Assembly (NCBI GenBank): GCA_009692065.1
Contig: SHZY01000028.1
Coordinates: 1 to 48,879, forward strand
Length of the DNA: 48,879 bases
Source: Gemmataceae bacterium
GTDB lineage: Bacteria; Planctomycetota; Planctomycetia; Gemmatales; Gemmataceae
Direction of reading: 5' to 3'
Positions 18,791 to 34,384 of the stretch are shown here, one piece after another. The notes under the pieces are model-generated. The model saw only the letters and a list, made by a program, of their open reading frames with translations. It searched no databases and had not been told where the DNA came from. The position numbers and the translations under genes are program-made. How positions within the stretch are numbered: position 1 is the stretch's first letter; every line of letters starts with the position of its first letter.

Positions 18791-18877
18791 GATCGGGAGG
18801 GCGAGGCTCCTGCCGAGCCGTGAACGAGTGGCAACTCGCCGGTTCAGCAGCTCGGCAGGAGCCTCGCCCTCCCGATC
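18791..18877. repeat. 28-bp perfect inverted repeat between convergent genes
   Basis: Bases 18791-18818 and 18850-18877 are exact reverse complements (begin GATCGGGAGGGCGAGGCTCC) with a 31-base spacer. The family is recognisable from read-through peptides such as AGASPSR. The RNA hairpin would form on either strand and could terminate both flanking genes. Confidence 0.85.
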
Positions 18878-33483: not shown

Positions 33484-33501
33484 GTTGGTTCAGGCGGGCG
33501 C

Positions 33502-33551
33502 AAAAAAAGGCAGGCCGGCCCCTTTCCCCCGATAGGCGGCCGACCTGCTAC
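33502..33551 (-). terminator. intrinsic terminator of the small-protein operon
   Basis: On the minus strand a GC-rich stem (33550-33535 with 33524-33509, about 13 of 16 paired) is followed by seven T residues (33508-33502). It lies about 30 bp past the small lipoprotein stop and only about 20 bp before the first possible LarA-like start. Confidence 0.7.
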
Positions 33552-33582
33552 GTGAGAGTGCCAGCCTCTCGCGTTGATTGCT

Positions 33583-33825
33583 TCAGCGTGGCAGCGGATT
33601 CAGCATGTTCTGCTGAGCCTCGCGCGTCAACTCGTCATCCAGTAATTGTGCGCCCTGATGTGGGTTGCTGTCCGTGATCTGTTCCGCCGTCACCGGCGGC
33701 AGCGACTTCCCGGCGACCGGGACAGGCGTGTCCGACACAACGGCCGGGCCGGGCATCCAGCCCATGAAACAGCCGGCACAAGTGAAGAGGCCGGTCACGA
33801 GGACAAATCCGCAGAGGCGTCGCAT
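33583..33825 (-). CDS. small putative lipoprotein
   Basis: This 80-residue protein has a signal peptide with a lipobox-like TCAGC (cysteine near residue 19) and a short proline-rich mature part ending TREAQQNMLNPLPR. No family is recognised. The ATG at 33825 is preceded by GGGAG within a 24-bp sequence (33817-33840) that recurs at the end of the upstream gene (33951-33974). The ATG overlaps a TGA (TGATG), so translation of whatever precedes it can be coupled. A strong terminator follows the gene. Confidence 0.75.
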   Translation of the reverse strand: MRRLCGFVLVTGLFTCAGCFMGWMPGPAVVSDTPVPVAGKSLPPVTAEQITDSNPHQGAQLLDDELTREAQQNMLNPLPR

Positions 33826-33974
33826 CAGCGCTCTCCCTTCCAAGTTGTGGCCCGGTCTCCTGACCGTGTCACCACGACAGATCGGCAGCTCTGGAGACCT
33901 TCGGTCGTTCGCGTGGCACGGTCAGGAGACCAGGCCACAACTGTTGGTTTGCGTCGCATCAGCGGTCTCCCTTC
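33817..33974. repeat. 24-bp direct repeats flanking a palindromic insertion
   Basis: Copies 33817-33840 and 33951-33974 are identical at 23 of 24 positions. Each contains a ribosome site and a TGATG stop/start overlap. The 110 bp between them (33841-33950) hold an inverted repeat: arms 33843-33868 and 33918-33943, matching at 25 of 26 positions and beginning AGTTGTGGCCCGGTCTCC. The boundaries of the repeat copies coincide with the ends of the insertion, as expected for a target duplication. Confidence 0.85.
33825..33959 (-). CDS. 44-codon bridging frame through the palindromic element
   Basis: This frame starts at the ATG of the upstream TGATG junction (33959) and runs through the whole palindromic element without a stop. 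It ends at the TGA of the second TGATG junction, where the lipoprotein ATG begins. It starts MRRKPTVVAWSPDRAT and ends TWKGER. It has a good ribosome site (GGGAGA). It is probably not a functional protein, but its translation would keep ribosomes coupled across the insertion. Low confidence as a gene. Confidence 0.3.
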   Translation of the reverse strand: MRRKPTVVAWSPDRATRTTEGLQSCRSVVVTRSGDRATTWKGER

Positions 33975-34384
33975 TTGGTGCTTTTCGACAAGCCGAGTTC
34001 CTTGGCGCTGATTTCGCCGAGGGGACGCTCCGATTCGCGGGCGCGGTTCGTGGTGGCAACGTAAAGGTCCCAGGCCCGCTGATGCAGCGCTTCCGCTCGA
34101 CGCACCAGTTCGTCGTCGCCGCTGTCGATGCCGATGCCACGCAGTTTCAGGCAAACGTCTTGCCGGCGCTCCAGGTCGGCTTTCGCTTTCTTGACGCGGT
34201 TTTCACTGGCCGCAGGCGTTTTCGGAACGTCGGTTTTCTTGTCGTCCGCTTTCTTGGCCGGTTCGACTTTTTTGGGCGCAGCTGAGAATACGCGCGGGAA
34301 AAAGCTGTCCGATTCCTGCGCAGAGACCAATCCGATAACTCCCAAACCGAACCCCAGCGTCAACGCCGCGATTCCCAGGCGCAT
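33959..34384 (-). CDS. small exported hypothetical protein
   Basis: A 141-residue protein with a signal peptide (1-22, ending VSAQ), a lysine/proline-rich linker (about 37-60) and a charged, helical C-terminal half (about 62-118) likely to form a coiled coil. No family is recognised. GGGGGA precedes the ATG. Its stop (TGA at 33959-33961) overlaps an ATG, and the surrounding 24 bp recur at the start of the lipoprotein gene, so the two genes were probably directly coupled before an insertion. The 236 bp upstream (34385-34620) separate it from a divergent gene and must hold both promoters; none is clear. Confidence 0.75.
   Translation of the reverse strand: MRLGIAALTLGFGLGVIGLVSAQESDSFFPRVFSAAPKKVEPAKKADDKKTDVPKTPAASENRVKKAKADLERRQDVCLKLRGIGIDSGDDELVRRAEALHQRAWDLYVATTNRARESERPLGEISAKELGLSKSTKKGDR

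Follow-up and report, generated by a model that had tools for sequence, protein, structure and literature searches.

Rickettsia palindromic elements combine a palindrome with a reading frame that stays open, in or next to genes. REPINs are doublets of REP sequences that form hairpins, and the passages of the source that deal with them do not mention target duplication (PMC3116915). REP sequences and their RAYT transposases are further marked by a GTAG-type tag at the hairpin foot; in the experiments described in PMC8266576, a change to GTTG abolished cleavage by one TnpA-REP, and another TnpA-REP tolerated tag changes. Insertion sequences of the IS1202 group are described as producing target duplications of 16–28 bp and as having 5′-TGT ends (PMC10132070). 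No paper encountered in our literature search names the palindromic element considered here or a junction duplication of its type.

The locus lies in a 48,879-nucleotide stretch of Gemmataceae bacterium DNA (contig SHZY01000028.1), here called the window, where a palindrome separates two small genes on the minus strand. Two 24-bp direct repeats (33817–33840 and 33951–33974; spacing, 134) are identical at 23 of 24 positions, and each holds a ribosome-site-like AAGGG and a TGATG. Comparison with the ends of other family members divides the 110-bp insert between them into 3 extra bases beside the gene 2-side repeat (33841–33843), a 98-bp family-matching core (33844–33941), and 9 extra bases beside the gene 1-side repeat (33942–33950). 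The core comprises two inverted units (GTTGTGG... and ...CCACAAC) and is predicted to form a strong hairpin. The initial annotation had reported 26-bp inverted arms, and a genome inverted-repeat scan also gave a 26-nt arm; direct comparison extends the arms to 30 nt (33843–33872 and 33913–33942) with 93% complementarity.

Gene 1 (33959–34384) is an open reading frame for a small protein of 141 amino acids, the N terminus of which appears signal-like by eye. Its end, its stop codon, and the first ATG all fall within the gene 1-side repeat, where the TGA at 33961–33959 overlaps the ATG at 33959–33957. From this ATG, a bridging frame of 44 codons (33825–33959, by frame translation; probably incidental) runs to a second TGA (33827–33825), which overlaps the gene 2 ATG at 33825 within the gene 2-side repeat, together with a ribosome-site-like GAAGGGAG. 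Gene 2 (33583–33825) is intact and encodes 80 amino acids, lipoprotein-like by eye. The repeats, inverted arms, two TGATG overlaps, and 44-codon frame listed in the initial annotation were all confirmed at their coordinates. The gene 1 protein ends in KKGDR before the stop, and the codons for these residues also form the AAGGG preceding TGATG; the last codons of gene 1 thus double as the putative ribosome site of gene 2. Searches of Pfam and NCBIfam returned no match for gene 1 or for gene 2. The element differs from the Rickettsia palindromic elements in lying between two genes and forming no part of a conserved protein.

A genus search covered seven genomes including this one, and gene 1 was found here and in four of the other six; the two congeners without a match are 74% and 94% complete. 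In all four congeners with gene 1, which belong to other species than that of the window and have gene 1 orthologues only 36–56% identical to its own, a single TGATG joins gene 1 to the next gene, with no insert and the 24-bp motif present once, as had been predicted for the ancestral locus. The K-G-x-R tail of gene 1 is invariant among these orthologues, and translations reveal short proteins resembling gene 2 after gene 1 in relatives. In the alignment, AAGGG....CG.TGATG is invariant across both window copies and the four congeners. The outer flank of the gene 1-side repeat tracks congener gene 1 ends and that of the gene 2-side repeat tracks congener gene 2 starts, most clearly in genome G003. 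With both repeats intact and their outer flanks matching the right genes, the proposal that the upstream gene kept its stop and the downstream gene its ribosome site and start is borne out. The sole mismatch between the repeats is a C on the gene 1 side and a G on the gene 2 side; two congeners have C, two have A, and none has G. The gene 2-side copy may therefore hold the single change, since the constraint of coding for gene 1 is gone there; a single difference over 24 bp says little about direction.

Beyond the genus, a family-wide profile search detected gene 1 in 84 of the 95 genomes. Junctions were surveyed at the 29 best-scoring loci, namely, those of the 4 congeners and of 25 out of the 79 further genomes in which gene 1 was detected. 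By an uncontrolled rule taking the start nearest the stop that had a hydrophobic N terminus and a cysteine, the nearest plausible next start lay, relative to the stop of gene 1, at −5 to +12 nt in 27 of the 29; one of the others had a start at +21, and one, at a contig edge, gave nothing usable. Because the junction is tight in 27 of 29 surveyed loci, all four congeners included, a tight gene 1/gene 2 junction is most likely ancestral in the family. Given this and the single unbroken TGATG of the congeners, the window locus is best read as an insertion that duplicated 24 bp of its target, and the history first proposed, insertion of the element at a coupled TGATG with duplication of 24 bp, gains support from the relatives' single junctions. 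Among the relatives checked, only this genome has the element and the second junction copy. Hairpins are hard to assemble, and the genome is a draft of 255 contigs (94% complete) in which hairpin and repeats might have been misjoined. Such an artifact is highly improbable, as both flanks run into open genes matching gene 1 and gene 2 of the congeners and the insert matches a dispersed family.

That family is abundant in this genome. The 110-bp insert had 82 matches (each palindrome being counted on both strands). A 23-base pattern for the element's end, with up to 3 mismatches allowed, had 111 matches genome-wide versus 0 in a backwards control. Seventy of the family's sites, against the 111 pattern matches, were fetched; 40 are two-unit copies spanning 72–112 bp, 28 are single units or halves, and 2 belong to neither class. 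Of the 28, 20 are complete 32-nt palindromes that deviate at no more than 2 positions. The central 22-mer, with up to 1 mismatch, occurs 78 times here and once in the six congeners (in G001). Across the 95 family genomes it is present in 8, this one included, the next highest counts being 14 and 5. Judged by these counts, the palindromic family is multiplied in this species and almost entirely missing from its congeners. When named genomes were scanned for exact matches to the 29-base unit, perhaps with the genome studied here excluded, nine contig stretches were returned, seven titled as planctomycete and two as Syntrophobacteraceae. Of 24 copies with long flanks, the window copy among them, 21 overlap no predicted gene according to a rough codon-based gene call that misplaces the gene 2 start in the window, so that distances are approximate.

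By analogy, the element is REPIN-like in shape and distribution. A copy totals about 100 bp, with a pair of inverted palindromic units, each about 30 nt long, enclosing an inner stretch; the element is dispersed, mostly intergenic, and found as singlets too, in line with what is described for REPINs (PMC3116915). The dispersed palindromes, inverted doublets, and hairpins typical of REP sequences and REPINs are thus all represented, with 40 two-unit and 28 single-unit or half copies among the 70 sites. It differs from REPINs in that it ends in GTTG and has no GTAG-type tag at the hairpin foot, in that its single units are near-symmetric palindromes, and in that no cognate RAYT was found beside a copy. 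Three Y1_Tnp matches, two of them over the cutoff, were present in this incompletely assembled genome, and none was flanked by the element's repeat; in the roughly 1.5 kb around each of the three, the only trace of the element unit was one 11-mer with 2 mismatches. We have not filed the element as a REPIN, since it lacks both the tag and a neighboring cognate Y1 transposase. A resident Y1 transposase on contig C238 was considered as the mobilizer and set aside, being flanked, by eye, by a different palindrome. A Y1-transposase gene at about 1440–2030 of locus L036 is flanked by a different palindrome of the CCCTGAAAGGGC type (by eye) and is likely a RAYT with its own repeats.

Compensatory changes among copies favor neither pairing of the element, with 7 double versus 113 single or breaking changes for whole-element pairing and 6 versus 74 for short hairpins. 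Three Rfam hits of microRNA type to the hairpin were far below gathering scores (best E value, 0.00022; 35.7 of 268 bits) and were taken as chance. A genome-wide search for a donor copy of the 9 extra bases found none that was convincing, with 15 matches versus 40 in a backwards control.

The arrangement at the junction looks like a classical target-site duplication, and a transposase cutting with a wide stagger could in principle yield 24 bp, a length within the 16–28 bp made by IS1202-group elements (PMC10132070). The initial annotation was right that the duplication is real, but its remark that 24 bp is unusually long for small elements calls for qualification given this group. It had also stated that other copies with no flanking duplications would refute its reading, and that is what the family presents. 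Among the 40 two-unit copies, the window copy has a flanking direct-repeat score of 21 and the next has 7; the other 39 score like re-paired flanks, for which the largest score was 17 in 1,560 re-pairings. Thus, none of these 39 has a flanking repeat above control, and 24 bp is not the length of target that the element duplicates. When flanks of 100 nt were compared in this genome, the window copy alone exceeded 9 shared bases, with 14 exact, and a few words of 13–15 arose in the re-paired control (0.08 expected per 40 copies). These two tests rule out the 24-bp duplication as a family signature.

The remaining copies gave a similar result. Fourteen rows from other genomes (including one locus twice, one right flank of N, and two rows of tandem single units) contained no duplication of the window's length; the longest exact shared word was 10, at L115 and also at L110, which has two elements in tandem. 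The 28 single-unit or half copies had no convincing flanking repeat, although for most half copies one "flank" falls inside the element and the comparison is not a fair test of duplication. The best of these 28, the single unit L084, has an imperfect repeat (15 of 18) located 14–15 nt from its ends, with a score of 9 (control expectation at that score, 0.11 in 28 copies), and we did not class it as a duplication. Roughly one-fifth of the genome (1,246,519 bases) was scanned and contained 395 inverted repeats; the window again scored 21 and the next 11, the largest score among 1,975 re-paired flanks being 10. Long duplications are no habit of the family, nor of palindromes in the scanned fifth of the genome.

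The ends of the element also fit poorly with a staggered cut by an IS1202-like transposase. IS1202 elements end in 5′-TGT (PMC10132070), whereas this one begins with 5′-GTT (GTTGTGG...CCACAAC), and 3 and 9 bases separate its ends from the repeats. IS1202-group elements are, moreover, long insertion sequences with a DDE transposase that duplicate a long target with each copy, while 1 of the 40 two-unit copies here has such a duplication. A classical target-site duplication is thus largely refuted, and we consider it improbable. One long flanking repeat should not be equated with an element's target-duplication length until other copies have been checked.

The main rival to a single event is a two-step history in which a short tandem duplication first produced two TGATG motifs at the junction and the element later inserted into the spacer between them. 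Short tandem duplications that include a palindrome end are seen by eye at L160, L156, L165, and L118, and a family normally without flanking repeats is consistent with a later insertion step. However, neither flank looks by eye like the spacer (9 + 3 bases), which a simple head-to-tail duplication therefore leaves unexplained; by chance alone, the element would have had to land in a very small target; and none of the four congeners has a duplicated junction. On balance, we regard the two-step history as unlikely, if less so than a wide-stagger target-site duplication.

We consider it reasonably probable that a copy of the family palindrome was captured where the stop of one small exported-protein gene overlaps the start of another, that the same event copied 24 bp of the junction, and that selection retained the result. 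The duplication looks like the product of a one-off, unusual insertion event and would not stem from a fixed cut by the element's own transposase. We infer its mechanism from comparison, and two routes are likely. A long staggered break may have been filled in while a repeat fragment was captured. Alternatively, replication may have switched template to a copy of the element and, on its return, resumed 24 bp before the place it had left; this route could account for the 3 and 9 extra bases as well. Because the end of gene 1 encodes the ribosome site of gene 2, an insertion without duplication would damage one of the two genes, and selection would be expected to retain a duplicated block holding ribosome site, stop, and start. 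The locus offers a clear case, with uninterrupted related loci for comparison, of a dispersed palindrome in an overlapping gene junction with neither gene broken, and illustrates how duplication can buffer insertion where these signals overlap.

The 44-codon frame is open across the element and ends exactly at the second TGATG, as first described, but it carries little weight for kept coupling. Among 80 placements of family members, including the window's own core in both orientations, 72 are stop-free in the bridging reading frame and 21 bridge exactly. With 21 of 80 placements yielding such a frame, it is weak as proof of selection, and it is plausibly a by-product of the element, real but cheap. 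For the minus-strand RNA of 33810–33990 as a whole, the predicted folding energy is −88.1 kcal/mol (z, −6.17), and the fold contains a long hairpin; the DNA of 33841–33950 is also predicted to form a strong hairpin (z, −8.03). Of gene 2's GAAGGGAG, the long helix includes the first base and no more; a weak local hairpin forms there in the minimum-energy fold, and the centroid leaves the site mostly open. Neither a promoter-like site nor an intrinsic-terminator-like site was found at the element. Since the ribosome site of gene 2 lies outside the long hairpin in these models, expression of gene 2 across the insert probably continues, and ribosomes could step through the 44-codon frame. A broader proposal is that palindromes enter zero-spacing operon junctions if insertion copies the whole block of ribosome site, stop, and start, the resulting stepping-stone frame keeping coupling. 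That this would be a general, selection-filtered route prying coupled pairs apart and giving birth to small frames seems doubtful at present.

Several further observations concern palindromes elsewhere. Short tandem duplications of about 17–50 bp (by eye) take in a palindrome end and its flank at L160 (1–680), L156, L165, L118, L113, L150, and L107, mostly in related genomes and, for L107, in this genome, as if the hairpins promote local slippage. Palindromes at L168 (14212–14309) and L207 (7120–7166) are flanked flush by exact direct repeats of 9 bp and 8 bp, respectively, which makes them candidate miniature elements that duplicate their targets in the ordinary way; at L168, the left repeat copy itself lies inside another palindrome. 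At L170 (8448–8506), another kind of palindrome separates, in frame, two glycosyltransferase-like coding stretches (by eye), with an imperfect repeat (13 of 15) on each side that may be due to chance. The window also contains a perfect 28-nt inverted repeat at 18791–18877 with 31 nt between its arms, perhaps another dispersed palindrome. Finally, the minus strand at 33500–33570 encodes a predicted two-hairpin RNA ending in a T-run, found in the same place after gene 2 in the four congeners. A pattern built from these five sequences had one match in each of the five genomes and none in the 90 other family genomes; 3 of its 24 pairs have a kept double change, and no Rfam family matched at a meaningful score. 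We regard it as a probable operon terminator whose sequence is unusually conserved.
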